Both the position numbers and the translations under genes were made by a program. The notes under the pieces were generated by a model, which was given only the letters and a program-made list of their open reading frames with translations, had not been told where the DNA came from and made no database searches. DNA of 64,000 nt, from NCBI RefSeq assembly GCF_041260155.1, contig NC_091932.1, positions 44,325,629 through 44,389,628 on the forward strand, in the 5' to 3' direction. Of the stretch, positions 14,228 through 62,048 are shown one piece after another (position 1 is the first letter of the stretch; each line of letters opens with the position of its first letter). The stretch comes from Ptychodera flava (taxonomy: Eukaryota; Hemichordata; Enteropneusta; Ptychoderidae).

Positions 14228-14262
<35 letters not shown>

Positions 14263-14398: not shown

Positions 14399-14442
<44 letters not shown>

Positions 14443-16484
14443 GATGATGATGATGATGATGATTTTCACAGGTGCAAGTGAAATTTGAGCCCGAGGCAAC
14501 TGGTAATAAACTGAGACTCTATGGACATAAACTTCATGTCACAAAAGTTCAGTCCAAAATTGATGGATTAATCGATGAAAAGATAGCCGGAGACGCCCAA
14601 GTTTCAAAAGGTGACGGAACGAGGGTTAAGTGTGAAGAAGACAAAACAGATGAAATGGGCAAAGAAATTGAATCTCGCACTTTACACTCACATATGAGTG
14701 AGAAAAAGACCTTAAGAGCTCCAGACTTAATGTCAGATGTACTGACTCTGCCTGCGACTTTAGACAGCCGTACGAATACAAATACCAAAGTAAAGAAGTC
14801 AGGGTCTACAGAAACAGACACCAGGTCTCTTGTCGTTGAAACAAGGTCGCTAGAAATTCCATCAAGTCAAAAGAGGAGTCCAAGAGTCAGTCACAAAAGC
14901 AGACGACCTCGGCGACAAGAGAAGAAGCAATACAAATCTTTTAATGCAAGTTCCCCGCTAGTATCAAACACTGTTGATTCATCTGATAATAGCAGTGTAC
15001 CCATGGTACCTGCAACATTATCATTTCTGCAGTCGGAAAGCTCAGTTGAAAATAAAGCAAGTGACAAGCCAGAAACCATGCCACCTCATCCGGCAGAAAA
15101 TAGAAGATTACTCTCACCAAGTGCTTTACAGAAGGACACGACTGTCAGCAGTAAGACTACAGAAGACAACATCTCTAAATCTCTGATTGCCTTTCCAGGT
15201 ATCACTTATTCTGCAACAAAACATTTTGAATCGGAGAGATCAGGACCCATCAGAAAGCATGATCCGGTGAAAAATGCAGGAGCGTCATTGGAACGTCCAA
15301 AAACAAAAAGATCAAGTAATGACAAGCTGAAGGTCACAACAGCCGAAGGGATGAACATAGAAGTCTACACTAGTGACCTGACTCTAGAGGTTGTGGATGT
15401 TGTAGTAAACTCGACAAATGGACAACTTACTCTTGATGCTGGCCTAGCAGGGGCACTAGGAAAGGCAGCGGGCATCGACTTAGAGAAAGACCGTGATGCT
15501 ATCATAAACCAGCGGCAAAAACCTCTTTCTGAGTCAGACTGTGCACACACTGCTGGCCATAATCTTCCGTGCAAGTATGTCATTCATTCCGTTGGATCAG
15601 TGTGGAACGAGGGCAAAGAAAACAAGATTCGACTTCAAATAAAGGAAACTGTCAAAAATTGTCTAATTTATGCTGAACGTGAATTAAAGGCAACATCCAT
15701 AGCAATACCGGCCATCAGTACAGGGATCAATCGTGTACCTTACCAAGTATGTGCTGAAGCACTGGCGGATGGCATTAAAGAGTTCAGTGAAACGTTTACA
15801 CCATCAAACAGTTTAAAAGAAATCCGCCTGGTAGACATCAGCACCGAAAGAGTAAACGTAATGAAAACAGAAATCGAGAAAACGTTTGTTCCAAAGAGCA
15901 GTGACGCTAGTGCGAAATTGCGGATTACATGTGAGAAGACAACAATCGAAATTTACAAAGGAGACATGACACGTGAAAATGTTGATGTAATAGTAAATTC
16001 TGTCAATGGTGAACTGTCCCTCACTGGTGGCTTGGCACTGGCGTTAGCAAAAGTTGCAGGTCCCGGCTTACAGAAAGAGTGTACTGAATATCTTGGCAAT
16101 CGATCAGAGGCATTAAAGGAGCCAGATATTATGCACACCAAAGCCTACAATCTAGGTTGTAAGCACGTCATTCACGCAGTTGGATCCCAATGGAATGCTG
16201 CAACAAGCAACGAATGCCGGAAGAACTTACAGGAGAGTGTGAAAAACTGTCTTACCCATGCTGAGAGTAAACTGAACGCAACCTCAATTGCGTTTCCAGC
16301 ACTTAACTCAGGAATTTACTCGATGCCAAAAGATGTTTGTGCTAAGGCCACGTTTGATGCAATAACAGAATTCAGCCGTGCATCAAGGGTAGATGTTTCC
16401 CTACGGGAAGTCCATATCGTCGATATTAGTCTTGACAGCATACAGGCCATGAAGATGAAATTCAAAGAACTTCAGCAAACATAA
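3412..16484 (+). CDS. PARP14/PARP9-like RRM-KH-macro domain protein, seven exons
   Basis: A spliced gene assembled from exons 3412-3430, 6594-6779, 10282-10542, 11316-11552, 11948-13575, 13879-13956 and 14472-16484. All borders are AG/GT and all phases agree (1,1,1,1,0,0), giving 1473 codons and a TAA stop. Domains in order: three RRM-like modules (about residues 10-240), several KH-like modules (about 260-830), a Ser/Lys/Arg-rich linker (about 840-1085), macro 1 (about 1088-1261) and macro 2 (about 1283-1459). This is the order of vertebrate PARP14, including the MYFESEKRSGGG motif typical of its first RRM. Macro domains bind ADP-ribose, and family members act in antiviral and inflammatory ADP-ribose signalling in cytosol and nucleus. 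There is no WWE or transferase domain, so the product should read or remove ADP-ribose and not write it. Low-homology exons could be missing from the two long 5' introns. Confidence 0.85.
3884..4600. mobile_element. Foldback/hAT-like non-autonomous DNA element
   Basis: Arms of about 230 bp (3884-4115 and 4370-4600) are inverted copies of each other, starting AGGGCCTCGCAC and differing at scattered bases. An exact 7-bp ATGCGCC lies immediately after the right end (4601-4607) and at 3868-3874, nine bases outside the left arm, so it may be a target duplication of 7-8 bp as made by hAT elements. The centre holds an 11-bp-arm hairpin (about 4123-4153) and a roughly 70-bp direct duplication. No transposase frame is present. 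It lies in intron 1 of the PARP14-like gene. Confidence 0.75.
5016..5365. mobile_element. Short inverted-repeat element, AAGGTAG family, copy 1
   Basis: The left end AAGGTAGTTCGCGCCT is mirrored by AGGCGCGTTCTACCTT near 5339-5355. The interior is non-coding and contains blocks (CACCGTGCAAATTT, CAAAATGGCCGCC) also seen in the partial relatives at 34.6-34.9 kb and 37.9-38.1 kb. It lies in intron 1 of the PARP14-like gene. Confidence 0.65.
5502..5776. mobile_element. Short inverted-repeat element, AAGGTAG family, copy 2
   Basis: It starts AAGGTAGAATGGGCC and ends in the inverted form of AAGGTAGTATGCG at 5776. Its right half is an inverted, diverged copy of the left half of the neighbouring element at 5016. 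The two could be adjacent insertions or one composite element of about 760 bp. Confidence 0.55.
6271..6328. repeat. (GA)n microsatellite
   Basis: Twenty-nine uninterrupted GA dinucleotides in intron 1, about 265 bp before exon 2. Confidence 0.98.
6594..6779 (+). CDS. PARP14-like exon 2: first RRM-like module
   Basis: Preceded by the acceptor TTGACAG and followed by the donor GTAAGG, phase 1 at both ends. It encodes a beta-alpha-beta fold with LDVLEMYFESEKRSGGG, very close to the motif in the first RRM of vertebrate PARP14 and PARP10. The symmetrical phase 1-1 exon is the same unit used by exons 3 and 4, as expected for RRM modules multiplied by exon duplication. Confidence 0.85.
6970..8012. 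mobile_element. Non-autonomous DNA element with 67-bp terminal inverted repeats
   Basis: Arms 6970-7036 and 7946-8012 are inverted copies differing at about nine positions, sharing the block GTCAAAACAGCGTCTATA. The 0.9-kb interior has no credible coding frame. It sits in intron 2 of the PARP14-like gene. A short relative (ACTAAATGGTTTGCAT) occurs at 21831-21846. I saw no clear target duplication, so the superfamily is unassigned. Confidence 0.75.
8013..10281. other. Rest of intron 2, nothing recognised
   Basis: AT-rich sequence without an open frame that resembles a known domain. Apart from the element at 6970-8012, I see no repeat family shared with the rest of the window. An additional RRM exon is possible, but none was seen. 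Confidence 0.4.
10282..10542 (+). CDS. PARP14-like exon 3: second RRM-like module
   Basis: The acceptor CATTCCAG gives phase 1 and the donor GTAAAAG keeps phase 1. It encodes KRRFLLKGLAEGTTLDNIKL and then YLES, an RNP-like strand and helix like those of the PARP14 RRMs, after a basic Pro-containing lead. The acceptor is chosen because the nearer TTGCCCAG (10282-10289) would break the frame phase. Confidence 0.75.
10650..10696 (-). repeat. tRNA-derived SINE remnant
   Basis: On the minus strand an A-box-like CGCCAGGTGAATGG is followed by a B-box-like GAGTTCGAGCCC (10653-10664). It is the same arrangement as at 35.43-35.48 kb. It lies in intron 3 of the PARP14-like gene. Confidence 0.5.
11316..11552 (+). 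CDS. PARP14-like exon 4: third RRM-like module
   Basis: Acceptor TTTTCTTACAG and donor GTAATG, phase 1-1. It encodes NCIMVRNLPKMMTSDLLEMY and FENSTRSGG, matching the second canonical RRM of PARP14 (V-NLP, FFEN, GG). Its likeness to exon 2 (LLEMYFE, RSGG) supports descent from one duplicated exon. Confidence 0.85.
11948..13575 (+). CDS. PARP14-like exon 5: KH-like modules
   Basis: The acceptor TTATTTTCAG (phase 1) opens a 1628-nt exon and the donor GTATGT closes it at phase 0. It encodes about 540 residues rich in Lys, Glu and Ile, made of repeated beta-alpha units (for example GFTINMTINKFPSSVHVLGD and VKIHVEKGSRDSVLKITG). These match the series of KH-like domains between the RRMs and macro domains of PARP14. 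Codons upstream of 11948 in the same frame are intron. A 325-codon antisense frame over this exon is a shadow. Confidence 0.85.
13879..13956 (+). CDS. PARP14-like exon 6 (26 codons)
   Basis: Acceptor TTTTTACAG and donor GTAAGC, phase 0 at both ends. It encodes TLDGDRLNHLSFRDVSHIMS and then LSKPLQ, the start of the last KH-like unit that continues into exon 7. It is too short to be found except through its splice sites and phase agreement. Confidence 0.75.
14226..14462. repeat. Microsatellites (TTTA)n, (GTT)n and (GAT)n next to an acceptor
   Basis: TTTA repeats (14226-14283), GTT repeats (about 14377-14443) and GAT repeats (to 14462) occupy most of intron 6 of the PARP14-like gene. The GAT run ends nine bases before the exon 7 acceptor, so length changes could affect splicing of the macro-domain exon. 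Confidence 0.95.
14472..16484 (+). CDS. PARP14-like exon 7: linker and two macro domains, stop
   Basis: The acceptor TTTTCACAG at phase 0 opens the final exon, ending in TAA at 16482. After a short KH-like end comes a 240-residue Ser/Thr/Lys-rich linker with basic patches such as KSRRPRRQEKKQYK. Macro 1 (about 15325-15845) has VDVVVNSTNGQLTLDAGLAG and PAISTGINRVP. Macro 2 (about 15913-16440) has VDVIVNSVNGELSLTGGLAL and PALNSGIYSMP. These are the adenosine- and phosphate-binding loops of PARP14-class macro domains. Macro 1 has DAG where macro 2 and most relatives have a GG pair, which may change its ligand use. The two domains look like a tandem duplication. Confidence 0.9.
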   Translation: MQVKFEPEATGNKLRLYGHKLHVTKVQSKIDGLIDEKIAGDAQVSKGDGTRVKCEEDKTDEMGKEIESRTLHSHMSEKKTLRAPDLMSDVLTLPATLDSRTNTNTKVKKSGSTETDTRSLVVETRSLEIPSSQKRSPRVSHKSRRPRRQEKKQYKSFNASSPLVSNTVDSSDNSSVPMVPATLSFLQSESSVENKASDKPETMPPHPAENRRLLSPSALQKDTTVSSKTTEDNISKSLIAFPGITYSATKHFESERSGPIRKHDPVKNAGASLERPKTKRSSNDKLKVTTAEGMNIEVYTSDLTLEVVDVVVNSTNGQLTLDAGLAGALGKAAGIDLEKDRDAIINQRQKPLSESDCAHTAGHNLPCKYVIHSVGSVWNEGKENKIRLQIKETVKNCLIYAERELKATSIAIPAISTGINRVPYQVCAEALADGIKEFSETFTPSNSLKEIRLVDISTERVNVMKTEIEKTFVPKSSDASAKLRITCEKTTIEIYKGDMTRENVDVIVNSVNGELSLTGGLALALAKVAGPGLQKECTEYLGNRSEALKEPDIMHTKAYNLGCKHVIHAVGSQWNAATSNECRKNLQESVKNCLTHAESKLNATSIAFPALNSGIYSMPKDVCAKATFDAITEFSRASRVDVSLREVHIVDISLDSIQAMKMKFKELQQT

Positions 16485-17412: not shown

Positions 17413-19070
17413 TAAAAAAGTTATTGTAGAGAGTCTAGATAGTAGTATGCATATGTCTTTATAACATTGAGTATATTGTGTAATACTGTGATCCAGACTT
17501 GGCAGTGAGATCAATACTAATGCAGAACAGTTGAAAAATTCCCTTTTAACTTGTACCGTAGTCCCGAATGAGCATGAAGAAACCATTTTATACATTCCTG
17601 AATTTAAAATATGACATGAAGGGAGTTTGGAAAGCACTGTAATGTTTTGAACTATGTATCGAAAGCTTGTTACAAATGCTAGAGAACATATCATGTTTTT
17701 GAATTTTATAGACCGTAAAAATCAATGGCTTGCAAGTAAAATATTTGCCAACAAAGGCATCTGGGTAAAACATGCCAGTAATATTATACAAAATATCAAA
17801 GAAAAATATATTGAGAACACTGATATTACTCCGTGCTTTCTTTATTTAGCTTTTCATTACAAAATCAATCAATGGACTGAGATTAATTAATATCAATTTT
17901 ACTACAGATTAAAAACAGTAAAACACGACAAATCAGAAAGTCTTGAACTTCTTTGCCTACATGTTCATAAATTATCTCATGACATTTGAACTTCATGGGA
18001 AAACTTTATATATTAATTATGTGGCGGAATTTTTGAGAACTGAAATTTAGCATGTAGCTATGAAATTATGATATCGTAACTGTGTACTAATGTCACAATG
18101 TTAAATTAAATTTGACGATTCAGCATTTATATGTCTAATAATATGATAACCAGAATCATATCTAAGTCTTCTGTGCTTTTCCATGGTTACCCAACAACAA
18201 AGTATAATTCAGATTCGAGGGACACTGTACATGTCTTAATATTATTCAACATTACCAAGTTTTCATAAAGCAGAATTTCAAGTTTTCATTTCCAAAATCT
18301 ACAATTTAATTTCATGATCAAGGTATTTGAAAAGAGTACATCCTGTACATATATAGTTTTCTTTTCACGTTTGTTCACTACACCATAGAGGTGCAATAAT
18401 GGACTCTTCAAAACCATTACCAGGCCCTCTTACAACAATATTCGTTCACACTGGATGAAGCTGGCTCACGATTTTAATAGTTTGAACAGTTAGACACATA
18501 ATGTTTGAAAGTAAATTTTTTGCGTAACAAATAGAAATGTTAAATTTTAACTCTTGTAATGTTTGGTGAAATAATCTATTGTGTTTGTTGTCGCAATTTG
18601 CAAGAAGGTGCCTTGTAATCTGAGGAGAGATGTTTTTCACCACAGAAATAAAGAAACGATCTTCAGTTATTAATCGTTGCACTCCTTTATTACCCTCTAC
18701 CCCTCTGTTTGCAAATATACTGTCCTGAACGTGTTTGTGTGATTTGTGATTGTGGAATGCCAGTACCTTATCTGCTTTCTTCAACTTTTTAACACAGATG
18801 TACATTCTTTCGAAGTTTAGTTTATTGGGCCTTTTGCAATGATAAAAATTCCGATGACCAAATAAGTTGCATCTTGATCAAGTCATTGAAAATGACATAG
18901 TCGCCGCTTGTAATTGGGAATTGTCACTGAAAGTGACTACATAGAAGTCAATACGATGCGCATGAAAAAGAGAAATGCCAGTACTAAAGCCCTTTCTGTG
19001 ACTTATGCCCATATTGAATTTTAGGAGGTAACATTTCGCTATAATTGTTATGCTTAGTCCTGTTTCAAGT
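17413..19070. other. Intergenic, nothing recognised
   Basis: AT-rich sequence between the two genes. A 119-codon minus-strand frame at 18446-18805 has no recognisable domain, no partner exons and a composition typical of random AT-rich DNA; I do not call it a gene. Confidence 0.4.
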
Positions 19071-22796: not shown

Positions 22797-25700
22797 GTAT
22801 TTTTTATTCTTATTTTAAAATGAAAGCCGAAAAAAGGACAATTTTAATCTCAGTTAGCCAAAGCAGTTCCTTTAATTAGTTTAAAACAAGTTTAATAATG
22901 CCAAATCTGACGATACCTTTGTACAGTATTGAATATATCCTATGATTCATTATGATTTGTACCACTGAAGATTCCTCAGGGATGTCTAACATTTCTCCTA
23001 TGTGCAAACAAATACATAGTCTACTGTTTAAAATTGTGAAACATGAGCTTCAAATTAAGTCCCAGCAAGCTTCTTGACTCTAATATAAAGCTTATACAAA
23101 CAAAATTAAAACATGAAACGCTTGTAAATCTAGCCAAACATAGGGGTGCCAGTGGTAACCCTTAACTTGTTGTAGCCATTGCATTACACCAACTAGCTCA
23201 GTGCATGCAAACTCCAGCAGGGTAATCAACAAAATCGTTAGTGTGAGCTGTGTCACAGATGAAGTGGTGAATTGCGTTAAAACAGGCAAGTGGCGCCTTA
23301 AAAGATGAGTAGTGGAAGAGGGCAAATGACAGTTACATGTGACGTCAGAATTAGACCAATAATAAATTCAGCAATAACCTCGTATTCATTTGTACCTTTA
23401 GGGGTCGGGTTTAACTCAGTGCTCCAATTTGTTATTCTCGACCTGATGTCACTCAATCGAACTGAAAAGTGTGCACATTGAATTTAACATAATATTCTTA
23501 AAGTTCAATCAAAAACAGTTCGATGGTAGTCAAAACCAAGACAATATACATGTACAATGCATGATCATCGTTTATCATCTTGTATAATATGATCCAAAAG
23601 GAAAAATAATTGCACTCTACATAATTTCCACTACCATTAATACTAGAGTTATCCTTACAAATCTGTATATGTGATACAGTAGGCAATTGACATACCCATT
23701 ATCACTAATCGATGATCAAACTGCTAGAATCATACACGAGGTTCCCCTTCCGACGAGTATCGTTGCAATTGGTGAGATTCCTTTGTAATCCAAGCAGTAA
23801 ACTAATCTGAAGTCTAGGTTCCTGTGTCGATTAGTTACCCTGAATGGTACTTGCACTTTCTTCAGGGGTTCCACCTTGCAGGACCGTCTCTGTGGTCTCC
23901 ATTCCAAGAGACTGTAGATAACAAGTAGGGGCATTAATCTGGCACGTTGGTGTTCGCTACACTTCACCAACAGTTCCTAGCTTCAAAACAAATATATGAA
24001 GTCAACCTGTAGATGGTAATTTAAACACCTTTTTGAATGCCAAGACAGTATCTGCAGCTGGAGAGGGAGGGTTCCCGGGACCAAAGCGCTCAACCCACCG
24101 CCGCCCGTCCCAAGTCGGGGGCAGCTGCAGTAGACTGAGAAGAGCTGATAACAGGATGTAGTGAAGCCTGGGCTTGATAAATGGAGGAACATCGCCCACA
24201 CTGTACACGTCATAATAAAAGTTGATGCAGATCAAGCCAGGCAACGGCCACCACCCGGCCATGGTTTCAATCCCAAGGGATGAAGTCACCCGCGAATATT
24301 GTTTTCAAATGCTTCCTTGAATTCTGCTCACATCAAACTTGGAAAACACAAAAGAACAACGCGAGAACAAACAGAAAGTTCACCTATGGCAGCCTCATCA
24401 TTAACGAATATGAATCGATGCTCCACAACTATTGCACTGCCAAACACGAGGCGAAAAAATCAAATTGAAGGTTCAGTATTTTTACAAAAACGCAAGTTCA
24501 CTTCTATACAAGATATGAATGATAACGGTCGTCAATTATGCTAAATGATTATCAGATACCCGTTCGAAGAGTACCAAATATGTCGCTATTGTTTATAAGA
24601 TCACGACAACAGCAATCGATCATCAAAATTGCATGTGAGTTTCTCAACAGAAATATCCTGTTTGAATAATCACCTTCACGTCTCACTCAGAGTTGATGCA
24701 AAAAAAAAAACAAACGACACAGACACAGGTTTTTGGATCAAATGAAAAAAGGGGGAAATGAACTTCATTGTCATACCATTGTTCTCCCTAATGGCTGTCC
24801 CATTGCCATTGGTTGCATGGAGTATGGGTGAAGCATAGCCATTATGGCATACCCCACCAAGCCTTCTGACACACAGTGGACTTAAGACATCCAGCACGCA
24901 GGACAAGGGCCCTAAGCCGCAATGGCAACCAAAAGCCATTGTGTTCAATTGCAAATGAAACTTAACGGCTGAAGTAGAAATACAAGCCCCCGGATTGGTT
25001 AGCGACTGCGTCTTGCCCATGCTACTTGAGGCATAAGGCGAGGGCATGACATGGCCTCTGTAATGGGGACATGGAGAGATATGAGGACATAGTAGTAATG
25101 TACTGTGAAAGTATAGGCTAGGTATTGTTCAATTGCGCAGCTGTAGGAATTATTAAAATCCCGTCTAGATAGAGCATGCCAGCACCGGGTTGCATAGGCA
25201 ATTGAAAGAGATAGCTGGTCGTTTTTATTGCTCCCAAGCTGCACATGGACCACAGTATTGAGAGGGCCATGATTTTTCCGAAAGAGACAATAAAAGATGT
25301 AATCTGCAGTGGCTGACGGAAAGTATTATCTGGTTGTGTGATTCTGTAAGTGTACACACACGCCAGTCGACCATGTATTGTGCAATCTAGTTTACAAGGA
25401 GGATGACAGCTTACGTCTTTCTCGCTATATCAACAAACATTTCAACCCAATACATTCCCCATAACATACCAGTAGCTAGATAGATTTGTCATCATTCCAA
25501 AACAAATGTAGAACGATTTCATTGGATTAAACCATTTATCTATTCAAGTGGAAAAGCAAAAGAATGGTTTAATCTTTTCATTTGCATAATGTAATTTCAT
25601 CGACTAATCGTAATTATTTACTACGTTTTCGTCTAAATTTTATGTTCTATTACAGATATCTCTTACGGCATTGCATGGCTTGAAGACCATCTCAAGGAAT

Positions 25701-28078
25701 TGTATGTAGAACACTTTAACAAGTTTAAACCACTACCATGGATTGACGCCTTTTCCCTTTACGTCAGTGATGTATACACAAGACTTGAAGTTGTAAAAGT
25801 TGACGAGAGAGGTAAAGAATTCAAAAGAAAAGGCTCGATAAAAATTCGACCTACGCGGTCAGAGGGTTGTGTAGTTTCTGTGAATGAAGTGTTTGGATTA
25901 TCTGGAAGTGGACGAAAAGCTAAAAGAATAAGGATTGAGGGACCACCGGCAATTGGCAAATCAATGTTTTGTCGGAAATTGGCGTACGACTGGGCCTGTG
26001 GAAAATTTGACCAATATAAATTGGCCATTTTATTGGAAGTGAGACATGTGCAAAAAATGTCCATAGTCGACAACATATTCGATCAGTTACTTCCAGACGA
26101 TGCAAATATTTCGAAAGAAGAGCTGACAAAGTTTCTCTCATACAACGAAGACTCTATTTTATTTATTTTTGATGGTTTAGATGAGATTGATAATAGTTTA
26201 AAAGCAGATAACAAATTAGATCTGAACAGAATCATTGAGAAGAAGATATTGTCAAAGTGTACAGTAGTTATTACTTCAAGACCTCATGAATGTAATAGTC
26301 AATTAAGTGGTTGTGATTTACATTTCAATATATATGGCTTTGCAGCAGAAGATCGTGAGAAATATATGTTGAAGTTCTTCCAACAGGATAAGAAAGCTGT
26401 CGAAAAACTAAAACAGTGTATAAGTAATTTATACATCGATGATCAAAATCAGGAAAGTTTTCTAAGAAACCCTTTAAATGTTTTATTTGTTTGTGTTCTT
26501 TGGGAGCATCAACCAGACGATGAGTCTTTTCCCACGAAGAGGACTGATCTGTATACAGAAATCCTTGAAAGTATCTTGCATAGGTATTGCTCTAAGAATG
26601 ATATAGATATCGGTCCTGACGATAGTATCGATCTCGTGAAAGGAGAAGTACCCAGTGATATAAGGACAGCAGTAGACACGTTGGCAGAAATTGCGTACAA
26701 CACTATGAGGGAAGGAAAAACTCTAATAAACGAGTCTGACATAAAACCTGAATGTCTTTTATCTTTTGGGTTGCTTGTTCGCAATTATGGTATTTCACGT
26801 TTAAAGCCAATAAAAGTTTGCTATTTCAGCCATAAAACATGGTTGGAATATTTTGCTGCACGATTCATTGCTACAAGTGATGATCCAATGAAATACATGG
26901 AGTACATGTTCATTGATATTGAGAGGTATTACACGGTTTTTACGTTCGTTGTCGGTATGTTGAAAGCAAACGCAGGTTCTCTTTTCGAATACTTTGGAAA
27001 GGTTATGAATAAATCCCTCGAAACAAGTGACATCGATGAGACCGTTGTTGATTTTTACTTCACTTTCTGGTTAACACTTCTCAATGAAAGCAATAACTGC
27101 GTTCAATATCTTCACTATATGGAGCCAGTCGTTAGTAGATTGTCCCATATCATGTTTACGGAAGTTGGGGAGATAGACAACGGCCATCCTTCATCTATGT
27201 ACCCTAAACCGTTTATGTGCAAGCGATACTCTCTATGTTTGCATAATTATTACGAGAATGCAACTTTCTTCTTTGAAACGGCCATAGAGATGCTTAAATA
27301 TCGACACCGAAAACAAGGTAAAAACGAGTCCGACATTTGTCTTTGGTTAACTGCTGATCAGATGGACGAACATTGGGCAGAACGTCTTGTCAGTGAACTT
27401 AAAGCCAATTCAGTGTCATTAAAGTGCCTTATTTTGGATGTAAAGGGCACGAATAATTGTGATAATATTCTGCAGCTATTGAAAACTGCTATTCGAGAAA
27501 CAAAGGTCATAAAACGATTTATGCTGATTGATGAAACAGATGTCGACGACGATGCTTCCATGATCGGGAAAATTGTGGAAAGTGCAGCAATAAATAAGCA
27601 TATTGACGAATTGTCGATGATTGTACAATCGCCCTGTGTAAAAAAGATTCCGATCAAATTGCTAGAAGTGAACAACTCAAAACGATTCCTAACTAATTTG
27701 GACAGCAGTACGGAAAGCGTAGAATTGGCTAATGCGCTTGTAAAATCTACAATGCACGTAAAATTACGTTGTTTTTTTATAGATTTCCAAGAGGACATTC
27801 AATCCAAACTCTACAATACGTTTTGTTATGCCGTTCGTCTACAAGAGTCAGGCTTGAAATCCCTGGCTATTTGCTCGCAATTGCTTGACTTTAGCATCAT
27901 TGATGCTGCTAGGGAAAGCATATCATTGGAGGATTTTCAGTTATCATTACACATTGACGATGTTCTTTCCATGTCTGAGCTGATCGTTACCAACAGACAC
28001 ATTAAGTCTCTTGTAATTTATGTATCGTCTTTAGAAGCAAGGTCTGTGGATTTTGTGGAAGGACATACAACGTCATAG
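22578..28078 (+). CDS. DED-NACHT NLR-like receptor, 5' incomplete
   Basis: Exons 22578-22796 and 25656-28078 join in phase 1 (ACACAG^GT, TACAG^AT). The first encodes most of a death effector domain. The second encodes a FISNA-like lead (HFNKFKPLPWIDAFSLYVSD), a NACHT ATPase with Walker A GPPAIGKS (25940-25963), Walker B ILFIFDGLDEID (26156-26191) and sensor ITSRP. Winged-helix/HD2-like segments follow, with the family's FSHKTWLEYFAARF motif near 26830. NACHT proteins of this kind are intracellular sensors that oligomerise on activation; a DED would recruit FADD/caspase-8-type partners. The C-terminal 330 residues are degenerate alpha/beta repeats, not clear LRRs. The frame stops at TAG 28076 although the same frame continues to 28474 (see separate entry). 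The start exon was not found. Confidence 0.85.
22797..25655. other. NLR gene intron, partly GC-richer decayed sequence
   Basis: The 2.9-kb intron between the DED and NACHT exons. From about 24.0 to 25.35 kb it is richer in GC, and both strands show short frames that shift repeatedly (for example a 95-codon minus-strand frame at 24002-24289). This looks like an old, broken insertion of unknown kind. No known domain could be assigned. Confidence 0.4.
25656..28078 (+). CDS. NLR gene NACHT exon
   Basis: Acceptor CTATTACAG opens at phase 1 with codons for ISYGIAWLEDHLKELY. The exon is continuous for 807 codons to TAG. In the Walker A box GPPAIGKS an Ala stands where many NACHT proteins have Gly, while the GKS that contacts phosphate is intact. 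The Walker B box has the extended acidic DGLDEID form. Confidence 0.9.

Positions 28079-41121: not shown

Positions 41122-41211
<90 letters not shown>
41122..41211. repeat. (AC)n(AT)n microsatellite
   Basis: About 23 AC units directly joined to about 21 AT units. The alternating purine-pyrimidine run of 90 bp could form left-handed or cruciform DNA. Confidence 0.98.
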
Positions 41212-41218
<7 letters not shown>

Positions 41219-41707
41219 TAATATAATTAGAATTTTGTGGGTATATTTTAAACATTTAGTCATTCTGTGTTTTATGAAATTGTTGTCACGTTAGTTGTAA
41301 GATAAGAACAATTCTGAAGTTTGAATACAGTATTTTGAATGAGCTGTGAATGTATTCCACACTTTGTATGAATCACCAGATGTCCAGAACTGTTGTAAGA
41401 AAAATGTGATTGTGATGTATTAAAGCTCATTGAAATAGCCTGCATATGTATAGGCAAACACAAACCAGAATTCACTTGCCAACAAGAACAATGCATGCTA
41501 AGTAGCTATGGTACATGTCCAGTGCAGTCTTATCATGCGTTCATCAGTTGAGAGAATCCCTGAAAATCTGTAGGTATGATCAATATGTCATGTGATTGCA
41601 TAAAAGTCACTTGTGACAAATTTATTGACTCTGTCTCATGATACAGTTTTCAAAATATAAAAGTATTTGAGTCCAGACCAAAATTCATGTACAGTGTATT
41701 GTCAATA
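41212..41707. other. Nothing recognised
   Basis: AT-rich, non-coding, between the microsatellite and the G-rich element. Confidence 0.4.
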
Positions 41708-42745: not shown

Positions 42746-44506
42746 AAACAAGTCATCGTTGATGACACAGTCCCCGCTTGTCCATTTTGTTATAATCTTT
42801 GGTGTCTAGGTAGCTGTGGTCTAGGTCGCTGTGGAATGACATTGATGCAACGGGTGCATCAGGCCTGTGACTTGCATAATGAAGTAATCTGAGGAACATT
42901 CAATAAATGACTCATCTCTGCCGGTAATGACCACTGAAGGAACTTTTGATTACATCACACATAATGATGCCCTCACTGCCTCTAGTGTCATGATGGCACA
43001 TACTATACACATGGTTTGGTGGAATTTTCGAAATGCTATGGGATCGGGTATGTTGTTGTAATCAGCCATCAGCCATTTCGGATCATATAATGAAACAATT
43101 CAATGTGCACAAGAATGCAGCCATAGTATTTTATCTTCGTATCACGTTTGAACAAAATCAGTCCATCGAGGGACAGTGACCTATGTTTATGTTTCAAAGA
43201 CATAAAAAAATCACACCAAAATTGAAATCAAATGGCTGTCTCTTGACCATATGGATCATAGCACAAAATTAGTAGACATGCATATGTATGCCATGGTACT
43301 TTATCTTTGTACCAAGTCTCAACAACATTGGTTAAGGAATATTTGCATATGATTAAGCCTCAAAGACATGAAAAAATCCAAAAATGACCATCGGGCAGAG
43401 ATATTGGAAAAAATTTACAATCTGGCAGCCATATTGGAACATGTCACGAAGTAAATTGACATGTATGCCATAGTGCTTGATCTTTGTGCCAAGTTTGGAC
43501 AAAATGGGTGTAATGACCTTTGAATTATGCTTCAAAGACATGCAAAATTCCAACAAAATGGCAGTTCTGCAGCCATATTGGATCCTATCGCAAGGTTAGT
43601 TGATACATGCATATGCATGCCATAGTACGTGCTTTGCCTTTGTGCCAAGTTTGAACAAAATCGGTTCAAGGATGTTTGAGTTACGGTTCAAAGACATGAA
43701 AAAATCACAAACAAAATGGCCACCTGTCAGCCATATTGGATCATTTCACAAAATAAATTGGTGTTCATATGAAGGGCATACTATTTTGCTTTTGTGCCAA
43801 ATTTGAACAGAATTGGTTCAAGAATGTCTGAGTTATGGTCCATAGACATGAAAAATCGCAACAAAATGGCCGCCTCACGCCCATATTGGATCGTATCGCA
43901 ATATAATTTGACATGCATGTGTAGGCCATAGTGTTAAGCCTTTGTGCCAAGTTTGAACAGAATCAGTTTGAGGATGTTTGAGTTATGGTTCAAAGACACG
44001 AAAAATCGCAAACAAAATGGCCGCCTCGCGGCCATATTGGATCGTGTCGCAAACTTATTTGACACGCACATGTAGGCCATAGTGTTATGCCTTTGTGCCA
44101 AGTTTGAACAGAATCTGTTCAAGGATGTCTGAGTTATGGTCCAAAGACACGAAAAATCGCAACAAAATGGCCGCCTCACGCCCATATTGGATTATATCGC
44201 AAAATTATTTGACATCCATAGTGTTATGCCTTGTGCCAAGTTTGAACATAATCTGCTCAAGGATGTCTGAGTTGTGGTCCAAAGACATGAAAAATCGCAA
44301 CAAAATGGCCGCCTCGCGGCCAAATTCGATCGTATCACAAAATAAATCGACGTGCATCTGCAGGTTATAGTGCTATGCGTTTGTGCCAAGTTTGAACGAA
44401 ATTGGTTCAGCAGTGTCTGAGAAACTGTTGATGACGGACGGACGGACGGACGCACAGACGGGACCCAATCTATAAGTCCCCGCCGGACTTCGTCCGCGGG
44501 GACTAA
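42746..44506 (+). mobile_element. Type A tandem-cored, Helitron/pearl-like element
   Basis: The 5' part shares ACAAGTCAT, ATGACA and AGTCCCCGCTTGT (42769) with type C at 51.77 kb. The core is about eight units of roughly 150 bp (43.2-44.4 kb), each with CCAAGTTTGAACA, GAGTTATGGT, AAAATGGCCGCC and GCCATATTGGATC. A GACGGACGGACGGACG run, CCCAATCTATAAG, a GC hairpin (44478-44501) and CTAA (44503-44506) close it. AGTCCCC near the 5' end is inverted in the 3' hairpin, a subterminal inverted repeat as in Helitron-derived non-autonomous elements. Confidence 0.7.
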
Positions 44507-44813
44507 CAAGCATAACAACTAAAAGAGTAACTCTTGTGGGTAAATAGACTGGAAGCACTTTTGAATTGGATTATTCTGTGAGAACCATGGCATATAATTT
44601 GATATCATGATTGCTGCCTTTCTCTACATTATACAATATGATCAAAGTATATCTGTCACATATACACTTTACGAAATAAATAGTTTTAGCGTTCCCAGTC
44701 CACTTACCCGAAACTAGCTAGCCAGTCCAATTAGTCTTTAATTTCTTTTCAGAGTATCTAAAATTTATTCTCTATAGAGAAAGTTAATTTCTGTACACTT
44801 ATAACATATCCAA

Positions 44814-45547
44814 CGGTGTCGCTCAAATTGATCAGAATAGGTACATGTACATACCAAAGATCAACAATAAGTGTTGTTTCTATCTGTTCAGTGCAGGAAA
44901 ATTCTACCGGTATGTTGATGTTATGACAATGATTTCTGCACAGTACAACCAGAAAAACAACAAGAAATATTTAAACCAGAAAAACAAGAATGACAAAAGT
45001 ACAAATAAGGTCTGAAACTTTAGGTACTGAAGGTCAATTTAAGCCGAACACGCATAGCAGAGAATGTTTCAACCATGGATGTACAAAAATAGACATCCAT
45101 GGTTAAGCAGGTCTGTTAATATGTCACAGTTCATAAACAATGACAGGAAATGACTAATAAGCTGTTTCAGTTACTGCCACCACTCCCAACATAATAGTTA
45201 CCCTGCATACAAGTAGGTTAAAGGTCAAAAACCTCTTACTCAGATGTGTGGGCTGTTTCAGTTACCGCCACCATCCTGCACATTTGCAGGATTTCCCCTT
45301 TTTCTTACCTCATTGGCATATTTTTGACACTGACATGTTCATTTGAACAACGTCACATCTCAACCCCTGCATCTACCTGTACATCAAACACTGAGATGGT
45401 AGCTTTGGCGGTATGGGAGCCTTTGCGTGTGACGGACATACATCCGCATATACATACCCTTATACATACATACAGACCTATACAGACGCCATCGACTCAC
45501 CATATAAGCTTTTGTGGTATTTATATACAATACCAAATATGAGCTAA
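44814..45547 (+). mobile_element. Type B element, copy B2 (short core)
   Basis: The same 5' segment as B1 (AGAAAAACAAGAATGACAAA, GGTCTGAAACTTTAGG), with almost no tandem core. It ends in ACGGACATACATCCGCATAT, a hairpin (45507-45545) and CTAA (45544-45547). Its closest relative is the B5 copy at 61.5 kb. Confidence 0.6.
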
Positions 45548-47967: not shown

Positions 47968-48474
47968 CTAATCGCAGAGAATCGGCAGATCTAAGATCTC
48001 TAGCAGGGTGTAGAGCTCAACCAGGTCAATCAAATATAGTGGTGCAACACGATGAATAACTTTGTAAACAGTCAGCATGATTTTAAACTTGATGCGTGCC
48101 TCAACAGGTAGCCAGTGTAGATCGATTAGTACAGGTGTGATATGGTCGAATTTACGGGTTCGAGAAATAAGGCGGGCAGCAGCATTTTGAATTGATTGAA
48201 GGCGTTGAAGTTGAATCTTGTTGATGCCGTATAAAAGACCATTGCAGTAATCTAGACAAGAGGTGATAAACGCGTGAACCATTTTTTCCGTTGTGGACTT
48301 GTCCAACAGCTGACGGATCTTGCCAATCCTAGACAGAGCATAAAAACCATTTCTACAGATATGATTAATTTGGTCGCACATAGAGCCAGACTGATCAAGG
48401 GTAACGCCAAGATTACGAACGGTAGCAGATGGAGCAATATCAAACTCGCCAATCCTTAGGCTTGGAAGTTTCAC
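47968..48474 (-). pseudogene. LINE RT C-terminal (thumb and tail) part
   Basis: Contains SCLDYCNGLLYGINKIQLQR, LQSIQNAAARLI and DLHWLPVEARIKFKI, the standard C-terminal region of CR1/L2 polyproteins. It is displaced by one base from the main RT frame. The usual ending (FSVxAPxLWNSLP) is further out of frame near 47.90 kb. Confidence 0.8.
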
Positions 48475-48485
48475 TACATCAGATC

Positions 48486-50009
48486 TCAGTCCGGACGAAA
48501 ATGAACAACCTCCGTCTTGTCATCATTAAGAATTAACATATTTGATTTCATCCAGGCGCGAATGTCATCAACACATACTTCAATAGACCCTTGGACTTCA
48601 TCTGGTTTATTGCAAACAACATAAATTTGTGTATCATCTGCGTATAACATGTGGTTGAGACCATGCTGTACAATGATATCTTCCAGTGGTGCCGTATAGA
48701 GGGTGAAAAGAATGGGACCCAAAACAGAGCCCTGGGGAACGCCACTTTTCATATGTGTACTGGATGATGTTGCAGATCCCACTTTGACACACTGAGTGCG
48801 ATTGTTGAGGTATGATCTGAACCACGATAGTGCTGTGCCGGTGATACCAAAACGAAATTGAAGTCTATGTAGAAGGACTTCATGGTCAACTGTGTCGAAC
48901 GCAGCCGATAAGTCCAGCATAACAAGGACGACGTCTTTCTTGTCGTTGAGGGCGAGCATGATGTCGTTGTGTACACGCATAAGGGCCGTCTCTGTACTGT
49001 GATGGGCGCGATACGCGCTTTGGAACTTGGTAAACAGACAGTACTTTCTGAGATGAGTATTCAGCTGGGCAGCAACAATCTGCTCAAGTACTTTCGATAA
49101 GAAAGACAAATTTGATACGGGTCGATAGTTCTTAAGAATATTTGGGTTGAGGTCTGTTTTTTTCAGCAATGGTTGGATGATAGCGGACTTGAAGTGACTA
49201 GGGACGGAACCCGATGACAGTGACAAATTGAAAAGATGTGTCATGAATGGCAATAGAGCATCTGCAAATTTCTTGATATATTTTACAGGCAGTACATCCA
49301 GATCACAGGATTTCAAAGATGCTTGTAATATGATGTTATTCACCTGGTCTGTAGTCACCTGGTTGAAACATGGTAGGGTGTGTGATGGTAAGACGTTGTC
49401 ATTATCAATGTGGGGACTTGGTAGGCCTTCTCGAAGTCGCAAAATCTTAGAGTTAAAGTAATCCAAGAATTCAGATGGAAGTGTTGCTGGTTTGAATTGG
49501 CTTGGTAGAACTTTTCTGATGATTGTCTTCACGTCGGATAACTCGGCAATGATGTTAAAGAGTCCCTTGTCGTCTGCTTCTTGGATACGAATGCGATGGT
49601 AGACGGCCTTGAGTTCATCACACCGACGAAAATATTCTCTTTGCTTTGTGAGAAAAATCTGACGATCGATCTCAAGATTGGTAGAACAATATTTTGTCTC
49701 CAGCCGTCGTACAATTTTCCTCATCATCAACAGCTCTTCACAGAACCATGGTGCCCTTACCTTGTCGGTAACGATTTTCGGCTTAATAGGCGCAATAGTG
49801 TCCAATACGTCTATTACTGCGGCATGGTAGAATGTTAACAGGTGTTCAGTGTTGCTATCTCGTGAATAGTTCGAAAGCTTGGCGGTGATTTTTTCTTGCA
49901 ATTCATCAAGGTTTATAGTCCGGAGATTGCGACACGAACTCGTAATCTTCTTGTTTGCTGGGTGTCGTACATCCAAACCAAACTTTATGAAACTGTGATG
50001 AGAGTTCAT
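48486..50009 (-). pseudogene. LINE reverse transcriptase ORF (507 codons)
   Basis: RT fingers and palm are intact: NYRPVSNLSFLSKVLEQIVA, DLSAAFDTVDHEVLLHRLQF, SGVPQGSVLGPILFTLYTAP and the catalytic LYADDTQIY. These are hallmarks of the CR1/L2 group (FDTVDH, RSYLNNR). The frame ends at HFRPD, where the family continues; a one-base shift carries the C-terminal part (47968-48474) into another frame. Confidence 0.85.
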
Positions 50010-50085
50010 CGAATTTGTGACATTAACGGAATGAAGAAATTGATCAGTCGTTCGGGTTATAAGCAGATCTAGATAGACCCTTTAT

Positions 50086-51765: not shown

Positions 51766-54507
51766 TCAACAAGTCATTTACAATGACATAGTCCCCACTT
51801 GTAATAGGAGTATTAGTCTTGATGGGGCAGGAAAATGTTGTCATTAAGAAGTATCACTGGAGTGTATATGTTGAGATCTATGGGCACATAGGTCTATGTC
51901 GTTGTTCCCAATTTGAAACACATGAGGCATGTCTAAGTTATGGTTCTAAATCGGGAAAAAAGATCAGACCTCTAGCAGTATTGGCCAGCCAAGAAATACA
52001 TATGCGCATTATAAATGACGTACAAGATGTGACATCTTAAGGTCTAATATCCTATCAAAATTGGAGGGTATAGAACTTGTGGTTACTGAGATATGCATAT
52101 ATATGTATAATCAAGGTCAAAGGTCATCGAGGTCACATGACATTTTGAAAAAAAAAATTATATTGCTAATTTATCCCTATATGCCAAAAATCAGATCTCT
52201 AGCTCTATTCGCTTGCCCAGAATTAGATGTGTACATAATTAATGAGGTAAAGCGTGTGCTGTCATAAGGTCTCCCATCCTACTAAATACAAAGGACATAG
52301 CACTTGTGGTTACTTATTTATTGACATAAACATATATTTTAGGTAAAAGGTTATCGAGGTCACATGACATTTGGTCAAAAAATTTCTCTCCTATAGTTAT
52401 CCCTATATACCAAAAATCAGACATCCAGCTCTATTGGCTTGCTCAGAATGAGATATGTGCATAATTGTTGAGGTACAGTATGTGGTGTCATACGGTGTCC
52501 AATCATACCAAATATGAAGGGTGTAGCACTTGTGGTTACTGAGTTATGGACAAATATGTATATTTGAGGTCAATGGTCACCGAGGTCACGTGACATTTTG
52601 TCAAAAAAATTGTATTGCTAAGTTATCCCTATATACCAAAAATCCGACCTCTAGCTCTATTGGCTCGCTCAAAATTAGATATGCACATAATTAATGAAGT
52701 ACAATATGTGGCGTCATAAGGTGTCCCATCATACCAAATATGAAGGGTGTAGCACTTGTGGTTACTGAGTTATGGACAAATATGTATATTTGAGGTCAAA
52801 GGTCACCGAGGTCACGTGACATTTTGTCAAAAAAATTGTATTGCTAAGTTATCCCTATATACCAAAAATCAGACCTCTAGCTCTCTTGGCTCGCTCAAAA
52901 TTAGATATGTGCATAATAAATGAAGTACAATATGTGGCGTCATAAGGTGTCCCATCATACCATACATGAAGGCTGTAGCACTTGTGGTTACTGAGTTATG
53001 GACAAATATGTATATTTGAGGTCAAAGGTCACCGAGGTCACGTGACATTTTGTCAAAAAAATTGTATTGCTAAGTTATCCCCATATACCAAAAATCAGAC
53101 CTCTAGCTCTATTGGCTCGCTCAAAATTAGATATGCACATAATTAATGAAGTACAATATGTGGCGTCATAAGGTGTCCCATCATACCATACATGAAGGCT
53201 GTAGCACTTGTGGTTACTGAGTTATGGACAAATATGTATATTTGAGGTCAAAGGTCACCAAGGTCACATGACATTTTGTCAAAAAAATTGTATTGCTAAG
53301 TTATCCCTATATACCAAAAATCAGACCTCTAGCTCTCTTGGCTCGCTCAAAATTAGATATGCACATAATAAATGAAGTACAATATGTGGCGTCATAAGGT
53401 GTCCCATCATACCATACATGAAGGCTGTAGCACTTGTGGTTACTGAGTTATGGACAAATATGTATATCTGAGGTCAAAGGTCACCAAGGTCACGTGACAT
53501 TTTGTCAAAAAAATTGTATTGCTAAGTTATCCCTATATACAAATCAGACCTCTAGCTCTATTGGCTCGCTCAAAATTAGATATGCGCATAATTAATGAGG
53601 TACAATATGTGGCGTCATAAGGTGTCCCATCATACCATACATGAAGGCTGTAGCACTTGTGGTTACTGAGTTATGGACAAATATGTATATTTGAGGTCAA
53701 AGGTCACCGACGTCATGTGACATTTTGTCAAAAAATTGTTTTCTAAGTTATCCCTATATACCAAAAATCAGACCTCTAGCTCTCTTGGCTCGCTCAAAAT
53801 TAGATATGCGCATAATAAATGAAGTACAATATGTGGCGTCATAAGGTGTCCCATCATACCATACATGAAGGGTGTAGCACTTGTGGTTACTGAGTTATGG
53901 ACAAATATGTATATTTGAGGTCAAAGGTCACCGAGGTCATGTGACATTTTGTCAAAAAATTGTTTTGCTAAGTTATCCCTATATACCAAAATCAGACCTC
54001 TAGCTCTCTTGGCTCGCTCAAAATTAGATATGCACATAATTAATGAAGTACAATATGTTGCGTCATAAGGTGTCCCATCATACCATACATGAAGGCTGTA
54101 GCACTTGTGGTTACTGAGTTATGGACAAATATGTATATTGAGGTCAAAGGTCACCAAGGTCACGTGACATTTTGTCAAAAAAATTGTATTGCTAAGTTAT
54201 CCCTATATACCAAAAATCAGACCTCTAGCTCTATTGGCTCGCTCAAAATTAGATATGTGCATAATTAATGAGGTACAATATGTGGCGTCATAAAGGTGTC
54301 CCATCATACCATATATGAAGGGTGGTAGCACTCGTGGTTACTGAGTTATGGACAAATATGTATATTTGAGATCAAAGGTCATCAAGGTCACATGACATTT
54401 TGTCAAAATATCCGAGATATCTGCGTGAACGGATGGACTCACGGATGGACGAACAGACGAACATGACCCAATCTATAAGCCCACTGGACTTCTTCCATGG
54501 GGACTAA
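51766..54507 (+). mobile_element. Type C tandem-cored, Helitron/pearl-like element
   Basis: The 5' end shares ACAAGTCAT, AATGACATAGTCCCC and ACTTGTAA with type A. The core is about 11 units of 226 bp (from about 52.05 to 54.40 kb), the central ones nearly identical. Each has AAATTAGATATGCACATAA, GCGTCATAAGGTGTCCCATC, CACTTGTGGTTACTGAG and a DR1-like AGGTCAAAGGTCA. The 3' end has a degenerate ACGGATGGAC run, CCCAATCTATAAG, a hairpin (54481-54500) and CTAA (54504-54507). No protein is encoded. Confidence 0.7.
52114..54390 (+). promoter_or_regulatory. Array of nuclear-receptor DR1 motifs with E-box-like sites
   Basis: The exact DR1 sequence AGGTCAAAGGTCA occurs eight times (first at 52114-52126, then once per unit from about 52.79 to 54.15 kb), with one- or two-base variants in the three other units. 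Each is followed by a third half-site AGGTCA and then CACGTG, CACATG or CATGTG. DR1 is the preferred site of HNF4, RXR heterodimers and COUP-TF in animals. The sites are spaced by the 226-bp repeat unit. Whether any factor uses them is unknown. Confidence 0.5.
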
Positions 54508-55178
54508 AAATTGTGTCACTGCATCCTTTTTGCAATATGATTACGATGAGAAACTAAATTTTTATTTTTCGTGGCCTTATACATGCGAGTTTATGGAGAT
54601 CTGCCTAATACATGGGAGTCTATGGACGTGTAAAATAAAAAATATGCAAATTTCACCACAATTTGCCCAAATTTGGGAAAGGTCATTCCTATGCACTTCC
54701 ATACCAAGTTTCAAATCAATCGGACTTGTGGTTTCAGAGAAGAAGATTTTTTGACCAAAAATGGGAGAAAATTACAAAAAATTCATGAAAAATAGCAAGT
54801 CTAAGATACTGACCCAAGATGTGCACAATCTTTTCATGTCAGCCCAAAGTACTTACATGCCATTTTTCATGTAATCTGCTCAGTGGTTATAGAGTTTTTT
54901 CAATTTTGACTGTTTTTACATTTTTTCACTTAATTTGCATATTTTTGGCAATGACAACTTCATTTGAACAAAATCTCATCTACAGCCCATCATCCATGTA
55001 CACACCAAATATCAAGATGAAATGTACAGCGGTTTTGGAGTTTTGATGTTGACGGACAGACATACAGACATACAGACATACAGACACACAGACATACAGA
55101 CATACATACATACAGACATTTCCCTAGCCTATAAGAATAGCTTCCATTGCCATATATACATATGGCTATGGGAGCTAA
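54508..55178 (+). mobile_element. Type B element, copy B3 (3' part)
   Basis: Core text (TATGCAAATTTCACCACAAT, CCAAGTTTCAAATCAATCGG, GACCAAAAATGGGAGAAAAT), a (GACATACA)n-like run, and a terminal hairpin 55139-55176 whose 17-bp arms pair with two mismatches, then CTAA (55175-55178). The last 350 bp are about 90% or more identical to B4 at 60.9-61.2 kb. Confidence 0.65.
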
Positions 55179-58020: not shown

Positions 58021-58094
58021 TGAGGATGTCAGTTTATTCAAAAATATGAAAAAAATTGATAAAAGTTACAAATACTGGGGCTTTAACAATTTCA

Positions 58095-58655
58095 CGACGT
58101 GATTATCGGAATATTAACATTAAGCAATTACAGGACAATCTTTCTACTAGCTTAGCAAATTACCCAGCTGATATGAATGTTGAAAAATTATCCGAGTTCT
58201 ACCAAGACACTGTCACCAATATACTTGATGCTGTAGCGCCCTTGACTGACAAGATGATCACCGAGAAAGCGCGGGCACCGTGGTTCTGTGACGAATTATT
58301 AGTGCTTCGTAAAGCTGTGCGTAATTTAGAAGCGAAGTGGCGAAAATCTCATCTTGAAATTGATCACCAACTGTTTGTATCAAAGAGGCTAGAATATGTT
58401 CGTATTTGTGACAAAGTCAAATCAATCTACCATCGGACAAGAATAGAGGAGGCTGACACTAAAAAGTTGTTCAGCATTGTATCTGAGTTGTCTAGCACCA
58501 AGGCATTGAATACGAATACTCTACCAAGCAACATACCACCGGACGCAATTTCCAATAACTTTCTAAAGTTCTTCGAAGAGAAAGTTTCAAAGCTACGCGA
58601 TGGTCTTGGCGGTCACTTTAATGATAATAAGGGACTGATGCCTCCCCATATTTAG
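58095..58655 (+). pseudogene. LINE ORF2 linker region
   Basis: RRDYRNINIKQLQDNLSTSL, then TEKARAPWFCDELLVLRKAV and HRTRIEEADTKKLFSIVSEL, the endonuclease-RT linker. It matches copy 1 throughout (RAPWFCEELL there). The frame ends at PPHI and a shift near 58650 moves the continuation (IKEVRKRIKQSPPKSCELDI) to another frame. Confidence 0.8.
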
Positions 58656-58891
58656 CCGAATTCAGGAGTGTATCTATCAAAGAAGTACGGAAGCGCATCA
58701 AGCAGTCACCTCCAAAATCATGCGAACTTGACATTCTACCAACTATCCTTGTTAAACAATCTGTCGATTCCCTCGCGCCTTTCCTAACCAATCTGTTTAA
58801 TGTTTCACTGTCTACAGGCAACGTTCCGAGCCAGTTTAAATCTGCAATTATTCGACCACTTCTGAAAAAACCTGATCTTGATCACAACTCA

Positions 58892-60007
58892 ATGAAAAAT
58901 TACAGACCAGTATCCAATCTACCCTATTTATCGAAAATTCTGGAGAAAATAGTCGCACAGCAACTACATGATCATCTGACTAGGTATGAACTTTACACCA
59001 AGTGTCAGAGTGCATATCGTGCCAACCATAGCACAGAAACAGCTTTACTGCGTCTTCACAATGACATTATGGTAGCTCTAAATAACAAAAAGGATGTCGT
59101 TCTCATCATGCTGGACTTATCAGCAGCATTCGATACGATTGACCATGGCGTTTTACTAAAGAGACTCGAGTATCGATTTGGTGTCACTGGCGCAGCACTA
59201 GCATGGTTTACATCATACCTTAACAATCGCAGTCAGTATGTAAAAGTGAACTCTTTGAAATCATCTACGTCATTCTTGAAATGTGGTGTCCCCCAAGGAT
59301 CTGTTCTGGGGCCGATCTTATTCACATTATACACTGCTCCACTAGAAGACATCATCATGAAATATAACCTTGACTACACCATGTATGCAGATGACTCGGG
59401 AATTTACGCCATCTGTGATAAGCCAGCTGACATTTTATCGAACGTTGAACAGTGTGTCGATGATATTCGTTCCTGGATGAAAATGAATATGTTGGTCCTA
59501 AATGATGATAAGACAGAAGTCATACAGTTTTCGTCAAAGTTAAAAACTCATGCTGAACAACTGACTAGCTTGAAAATCGGTGGATCAGACATAGTTCCAT
59601 CCTCTTCCGTAAGAAATCTTGGTGTTAATTTGCAAAATGATGGCTCTATGTCTGATTATGTTAGTCATATTTGCAAAGTGGGTTCTTTTTCCCTATACAG
59701 GATTGGCTAGATTCGCAAACTGCTTGATAAAGCCTGCACAGAGAGACTGATACATGCATTTGTGACATCACGACTAGACTATTGTAACAGTCTATTGAAT
59801 GGAATACCTAAGTGTCAGTTAAGTGGTTTACAATCTCTTCAGAATGCCGCCGCTCCTCTTGTATGCTGTAAACGTAAATTGGACCACATCACTCCAGTAC
59901 TGAATGACTTACATTGGTTACCAGTTGATGCCAGAATTAAATTTAAAACTCTGCTGATAACTTTCAAGATAATTAATCACATGCACCACTGTACTTATCA
60001 GAAATAA
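58892..60007 (+). pseudogene. LINE reverse transcriptase core and C-terminal region
   Basis: NYRPVSNLPYLSKILEKIVA, DLSAAFDTIDHGVLLKRLEY, CGVPQGSVLGPILFTLYTAP and YADDSGIYAI. A TAG at 59708 stands where copy 1 has a Lys codon (RIGKIR); the same frame then continues through SRLDYCNSLLNGIPKCQLSG and DLHWLPVDARIKFKT. The YADD catalytic pair is intact. Confidence 0.85.
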
Positions 60008-61497: not shown

Positions 61498-62048
61498 TAA
61501 AAGTAAATAAAGTCTGAAACTTTAGGTACTGGAGGTCAACTTTAGGAACAGGCTTAGCAGAGGAATGTTTCAACACAGTCCTTCATGGTTTCAGCAGGTC
61601 TGCCAATATGTATCAGTTCATGAACAATGACAGGAAATGACTCAAGGTCAGTGGAGTAGGCTGTTTCAGTCACTGCCACCACTCCTACACATAATACGTA
61701 CACTGCATACAAATAGGTCATAGGTTAGAACCTCTGACTCAGATGTGTAGGCTGTTTCAGTTAATACCACCACTCCCGCACATTTGCAGGATTTCCCCTT
61801 TTTCTTACCTCATTTGCATATTTTTGACACTGACATGTTCATTTGAACAAAGTCACATCTCAACCCCTGGGTCTACCTGTACACCAAATACTAAGATGGT
61901 AGGTGTGGCAGTTTGGGAGCTTTTGCGTCATATGGACAAACATCCGTATATACATACATAAATACAGAGGGACATATACCGGTACAGATGCTACTGACTC
62001 ACCATATAAGCTCTTTTTGGTATTTATACACATTCAAATATGAACTAA
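61498..62048 (+). mobile_element. Type B element, copy B5
   Basis: GGTACTGGAGGTCAACTTTA through GACAGGAAATGACTCAAGGT, then ATTTGCATATTTTTGACACT and a degenerate run before ACTAA at 62044-62048. Closest to B2 (both have GTGTAGGCTGTTTCAGT or similar). Confidence 0.6.

Follow-up and report, generated by a model that had tools for sequence, protein, structure and literature searches.

Cg_HINE of Crassostrea gigas, in the excerpts of PMC7492417 used here, consists of a 5' subterminal inverted repeat (subTIR) with a complementary inverted repeat, a GTCC/GTCY microsatellite, a satellite-like central array and a 3' subTIR followed by a palindrome. Its clusters are mostly made of 140-180 bp units, its subTIRs are 11-12 bp long, and its 3' module lies inside a 60-bp right flank. 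DINE-1 and HINE elements of Drosophila and mites, in the portions of PMC4067079 that cover them, have subTIRs, a 3' palindrome, central repeats and no coding capacity. HINEs, being non-autonomous Helentrons, are further expected to enter TT sites without target-site duplication and to have an autonomous Helentron with matching ends. Pearl elements and the BIV160/Cg170 satellites of bivalves are modular with a tandem core, and their diverged monomers share conserved motifs, according to the relevant part of PMC5139131. Alu repeats are a case of a mobile element that has spread receptor-like direct repeats: they carry DR2 receptor sites (PMC1785376), and binding of HNF4alpha to them was measured (PMC3252374).

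The window, i.e., the whole 64-kb stretch of DNA that was analysed, contained an element of HINE-like layout with a central tandem array (element C) and a sister element (element B). The following features were assigned.

51770..54510, minus strand: whole element C, HINE-like and non-autonomous, with the 5' end on the right, where the boundary may be off by a few bases
54498..54506, minus strand: 5' subterminal repeat TAGTCCCCA, overlapping the hairpin at 54480-54501
54430..54462, minus strand: microsatellite-like tract of degenerate GTCC/GTTC type that separates the hairpin from the array, read directly by eye
51959..54408, no strand assigned: central array of 226-bp units, 10.9 copies (Tandem Repeats Finder and unit alignment)
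52793..52805, plus strand: DR1-like site AGGTCAAAGGTCA, an example; one per unit
52721..52788, plus strand: cross-family core motif in a C unit, an example; overlaps the unit's longest unvaried stretch
51770..51801, minus strand: 3' module, palindrome GTCATTTACAATGAC and inverted subterminal repeat TAGTCCCCA (in plus-strand letters)
42749..44507, minus strand: sister element B, with the same end modules, an array of 150-bp units and no exact DR1
18879..18910, minus strand: third copy of the 3' module, for which neither an array nor a partner end was recognised

Three parts come before the array of element C on the minus strand: a hairpin region that has TAGTCCCCA close to its beginning, CTTATAGATTGG after it, and last the degenerate GTCC tract, which Tandem Repeats Finder did not report at 54430-54462. 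On the plus strand, 157 bp beyond the array, GTCATTTACAATGAC ATAGTCCCCA represents the palindrome and the inverted subterminal repeat. Element C showed the following parts of a HINE: subterminal inverted repeats at both ends, a 5' subTIR with a complementary inverted repeat (strong in element B, weak in element C), a 5'-side microsatellite, central tandem repeats, and a 3' subTIR followed by a palindrome. Its parts follow one another as in Cg_HINE (PMC7492417), and its GTCC tract agrees as well; the comparison was made by layout and not by sequence. The unit of 226 bp, the subTIR match of 9 bp and the distance of 157 bp between array and 3' module differ from the values given there, while the ability of related Cg_HINE flanks to bear divergent monomers is a trait shared with elements B and C (PMC7492417, in part). 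The resemblance to the pearl, BIV160 and Cg170 sequences, as far as PMC5139131 was excerpted, is likewise one of organisation only. No open reading frame of at least 120 amino acids (stop to stop) overlapped 51770-54510. Neither an empty site nor a second C array was available in the window, nor was an autonomous partner, in which element C differs from the DINE-1/HINE elements of the excerpted PMC4067079. An earlier assignment of the right end of element C as a Helitron 3' end was dropped, as the published HINE anatomy reverses the orientation of the element.

The 9-bp repeat TAGTCCCCA occurred exactly at 54506 (minus) and 51789 (plus) only, within the window. When the 659 bp on the left side of the array were shuffled by mononucleotide, 12 of 20,000 shuffles contained it and none contained it together with the palindrome. 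The hairpin of element C (54460-54512, minus strand) had an 8-bp bulged stem with -5.3 kcal/mol (z -1.12), which 23 of 200 shuffles equalled or bettered, and the fold of its 3' module did not stand out from shuffles (z -0.67), 47 of 200 being equal to it or better.

Tandem Repeats Finder reported one array at 51959-54408, with a period of 226, 10.9 copies and 91% matches. The original prediction of tandem units at 226-bp spacing was borne out, the left edge reaching slightly past the start that had been claimed. Eleven units (u1 to u11 from left to right) were cut from 51933-54413 and aligned. As had also been claimed, AGGTCAAAGGTCA was exact in eight of them (starts at 52114, 52793, 53019, 53245, 53471, 53694, 53918 and 54141) and varied in three, with one mismatch at 52567 and 54369 and two mismatches at 52341; both half-sites were altered in u2. 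No exact copy was found outside the array within the 64-kb window. With up to two mismatches allowed, the window contained 17 matches (mean of 100 shuffles, 1.83), 11 of which fell inside the array. AGGTCA occurred 28 times on the plus strand of the array and never on the minus strand. DR1 is a known site for HNF4, RXR partners and COUP-TF, and CACGTG is a bHLH site; bilaterian animals possess HNF4, RXR and COUP-TF. At the sequence level the array site agrees with the DR1 consensus. The E-box forms and the third AGGTCA were read by eye from the unit alignment: the expected CACGTG or CACATG after AGGTCA was present in five and four of the 11 units, respectively, but the other two carried CATGTG, a form that had gone unmentioned, and the third AGGTCA was broken (ACGTCA) in the unit at 53694. 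C-to-T or G-to-A changes (CpG transitions) at a single CpG account for the three E-box forms. The alignment also revealed the palindromes GTCACGTGAC and TGACATTTTGTCA adjoining DR1 in the unit. The eight exact sites are copies of one unit and not eight independent events.

Units u4 to u10 were 95-98% identical in pairwise comparison, and u11 was 93-94% identical to them. The identity dropped at the left edge, where u3 showed 74-90%, u2 71-82% and u1 71-78% to the other units. Recent homogenisation of the units, which had been offered from the start as the alternative to conservation of the sites, fits this pattern of 95-98% within u4-u10 and 71-82% between u1 or u2 and the others. Alignment columns 55 and 88 alternate across much of u4-u11, a hint that dimers may have been copied.

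Very probably, the array is the core of a minus-strand, non-autonomous, Helentron-like rolling-circle element of the HINE, DINE-1 or pearl type, in which the receptor-like motif is borne by the unit and is not specially kept. The end modules would be the parts recognised for transposition. Judging from the identity gradient, unequal exchange, slippage or rolling-circle copying within the element may have multiplied the 226-bp units and made them homogeneous. One unit would have acquired three AGGTCA half-sites and the GTCACGTGAC palindrome, later copies would have inherited them, and the sites would then have decayed like the remainder of the unit. Any receptor binding would be a by-product and not the cause of the block being kept. 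The simplest reading is that the motif was born once and multiplied with its unit; in this way, perfect receptor-like sites can come to form an array inside a mobile element with little sign of selection.

A different reading, which we consider improbable, holds that the DR1/E-box block would be a working regulatory cassette for HNF4, RXR partners, COUP-TF and bHLH factors, kept because it is bound and serving as an enhancer seed or a sink. The exact DR1 in eight of 11 units speaks for it, as do two precedents, i.e., the binding of HNF4alpha to Alu repeats (PMC3252374) and the helitron-derived ISX with its working MSL-complex sites (PMC4384637), both taken from excerpts. In the Alu case, however, binding of HNF4alpha was measured (PMC3252374, excerpted), while the sites of element C are known from sequence alone and lie in a tandem array. 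Conservation inside the array was assessed by ranking the block against all 226 circular windows of its length in the unit (counts include the block itself), using sets of units picked after the identities were seen. The number of windows conserved equally well or better than the DR1 13-mer was 23 of 226 for all 11 units, 89 for u3-u11, 70 for u4-u10 and 46 for u1-u3. For GAGGTCAAAGGTCACC the corresponding numbers were 68, 101, 52 and 80, and for the 31-bp block through the E-box they were 73 (11 units), 155 (u3-u11) and 169 (u4-u10). Among u1-u3 the 31-bp block ranked in the better-kept tail of the windows, 11 of 226 (the block included) being conserved as well or better, a ranking that favours the cassette reading and rests on three units.

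The half-site/E-box part also varied less than the sequence outside the block when all 11 units were compared (0.073 versus 0.116 differences per pair), but it varied more in u3-u11 (0.071 versus 0.058) and in u4-u10 (0.075 versus 0.032). The longest invariant runs were GTGGTTACT in the 11 units, GTGGTTACTGAGTTATGGACAAATATGTATA in u3-u11 and a run of 41 bases containing GTGGTTACTGAGTTATGGACAAATATGTATA in u4-u10, where the invariant run containing DR1, with 17 bases, ranked fifth. The longest unvaried stretch of the unit therefore lies elsewhere than DR1; it overlaps a motif common to other repeat families. CpG columns were considered separately. When defined as CpG in any unit, which favours variable columns, 11 of 18 were variable in u3-u11 as against 31 of 208 others (p 3e-5). 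When CpG in most units was required, the contrast was 5 of 8 versus 37 of 218 in u3-u11 (p 0.0065) and 3 of 8 versus 17 of 218 in u4-u10 (p 0.025), and it was not significant over all 11 units (4 of 6 versus 95 of 220, p 0.41). DR1 has no CpG column, and its columns varied like the other non-CpG columns, both in u3-u11 (2 of 13 versus 29 of 195, p 1.0) and in all 11 units (4 of 13 versus 79 of 188, p 0.56). Taken to the letter, it is correct that some of the flanking text is less well kept than the block, as had been claimed, but the block was not exceptional in the window ranking. Neither this ranking nor the comparison of substitutions inside and outside the block, made on the aligned units, supported a special conservation of the DR1/E-box block, and no constraint on DR1 above that on the surrounding unit was found within this one array of 11 units. 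DR1 was unexceptional over 11 units, u3-u11 and u4-u10 alike, which together with the changed half-sites of u2 argues against a cassette.

The motif is nevertheless improbable by composition, a point that counts for the cassette and against the single-birth explanation. Among 20,000 shuffled units, AGGTCAAAGGTCA occurred in none, RGGTCANRGGTCA in three, GTCACGTGAC in two, RGKTCANRGKTCA in eight and any DR0-DR5 in 49. As the copies depend on one another, the figure for DR1 applies to a single birth; it also takes no account of the many other known factor motifs that could equally have drawn notice. The explanation has to assume either a lucky single birth or a local duplication; the three AGGTCA inside 24 bp suggest a small local duplication.

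A core motif of about 45 bp (ACCAARTWTSAA...GGTT..TGAG) was common to several types of tandem-repeat elements in the window. The regular expression for it, written after the units of B, C and the type D element had been seen, found 15 places on the plus strand and none on the minus strand (0.28 per strand in 50 shuffles), among them 39646, 40081, 43642-44383, 52505, 52731, 54701, 55002, 60513 and 61881. A matrix was derived from the 12 non-C places; 45530, a chance-like match where an element ends, was left out, as were two C places. Scored on the columns outside the expression only, the C unit reached its best value at the aligned place, and none of 2,000 shuffled units reached this value. 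In such elements, the core motif may be what is truly kept. No DR1 was found in the 150 bp following each of the 12 non-array motif places, where the best matches had 4 to 6 mismatches (mean 4.83; shuffled 4.86). These motif neighbourhoods, too, speak against a cassette, and an exact DR1 in the sister arrays was not supported.

A second repeat family, aligned from 44995 and 61499, had 464 of 527 aligned bases identical. A DR1-like site was located at the same place in both copies, AGGTTAAAGGTCA at 45215-45227 and AGGTCATAGGTTA at 61715-61727, which favours the cassette and is a point against the preferred explanation. The two sites agreed in 9 of 13 aligned columns (10 of 13 by eye without a gap), less than the pair as a whole, though this was not unusually poor, as 146 of 564 windows agreed as poorly or worse. 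The site has decayed differently in the two copies and is not specially kept; its special conservation between them was thus not supported.

Both end modules of element C recurred in element B around a different array. The right end of element C consists of CCAATCTATAAG and hairpin text common to element B, and the two right ends were 78% identical over 81 bp; the right-end pattern CCAATCTATAAGYCC had two matches in the window and none in 100 shuffles. The left end is a 32-bp module common to 42749 and 18879. Its pattern CAAGTCATNNNNNATGACAYAGTCSCCRCTTG had three matches in the window, one of which closes element B, and none in 100 shuffles. As the end-module patterns were written from the matched copies, these counts are a measure of rarity and not a blind test. 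In the three 3' modules the stem was kept, with the innermost pair T-A twice and C-G once, while the loops (TAC, GTT and GAA) differed. The hairpin of element B folded strongly (-14.5 kcal/mol, none of 200 shuffles as good), and its GGAC tract, at the same place as the GTCC tract of element C, was clearer. Elements B and C are both HINE-like and share their ends but not their cores, and the array of element C looks transposon-borne, as had been predicted. Since the ends are shared and the cores differ, the DR1-free element B is a natural control; up to three mismatches it contained a single match to DR1, with two mismatches, at 43514 on the minus strand.

It is very unlikely that the AGGTCA/GTCACGTGAC block would serve transposition, either as a binding site for one of the autonomous partner's proteins (Rep/helicase or RPA) or through palindromes that shape single-stranded copying. 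The palindromes GTCACGTGAC and TGACATTTTGTCA do adjoin DR1, and TGACATTT was unchanged in 11 of 11 units. Element B, however, shares the ends and lacks an exact copy of the block, which is therefore not needed by the family, and the motif common to the families sits elsewhere in the unit. An ordinary satellite array outside any transposon, with coincidental end modules, would agree with there being one array of this kind in the window and no empty site, but it is hardly credible given the paired end modules shared with element B and the third 3' module. The core of a HINE-like element remains the preferred explanation of the array, with the well-kept 31-bp block of u1-u3 and the folds of element C, little better than shuffles, as points against it. 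If receptor binding were true, such elements would be portable clusters of receptor sites, as in the Alu and ISX precedents. Scattered copies could then be ready-made clusters of about 10 strong DR1 each, acting as a sink or platform for HNF4/RXR/COUP-TF-like receptors and altering the response of nearby genes, which we regard as doubtful in the same degree as the cassette itself.

Exact-pattern scans of viral contigs with a word of the C unit and a word of the end module gave no matches for either, and a blastn search of phages with 461 bases of the array gave no match. A 17-base end-module word had five matches in bacterial genome records, which were taken as chance; roughly 30 chance matches are expected in 257 Gb on both strands. 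A literature search yielded no paper joining Helentron, tandem repeat and nuclear receptor, though such work may still exist.

A type D element was considered as the host of a nested C insertion. It has a right end at 55179, a possible 3' end near 51566 and D-like unit pieces left of 51566; no intact copy was present in the window. Four further right ends in AGCTAA, preceded by GAC/ACAT-type tracts, were seen at 40218, 45548, 55179 and 61217; a partner end may lie at 51566. Folding covered three of these right ends, of which two beat all 200 shuffles and one did not.

Seven pieces of the 23 listed open reading frames were scanned against Pfam. KH_PARP14, Macro and NACHT domains were found, RVT_1 was found in two pieces, and two pieces gave nothing; nSTAND3 was also seen with NACHT, below its cut-off. 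Domains of these kinds would be in keeping with an invertebrate animal genome. Long open reading frames with PARP14-type KH and Macro domains lie at 11830-16484, and an NLR-like frame with a NACHT domain at 25637-28078. Two sets of reverse-transcriptase frames, alike by eye and on opposite strands, occupy 47968-50081 and 58050-59710, each divided between two reading frames. Adjoining runs of AC and AT dinucleotides are located at 41123-41225.
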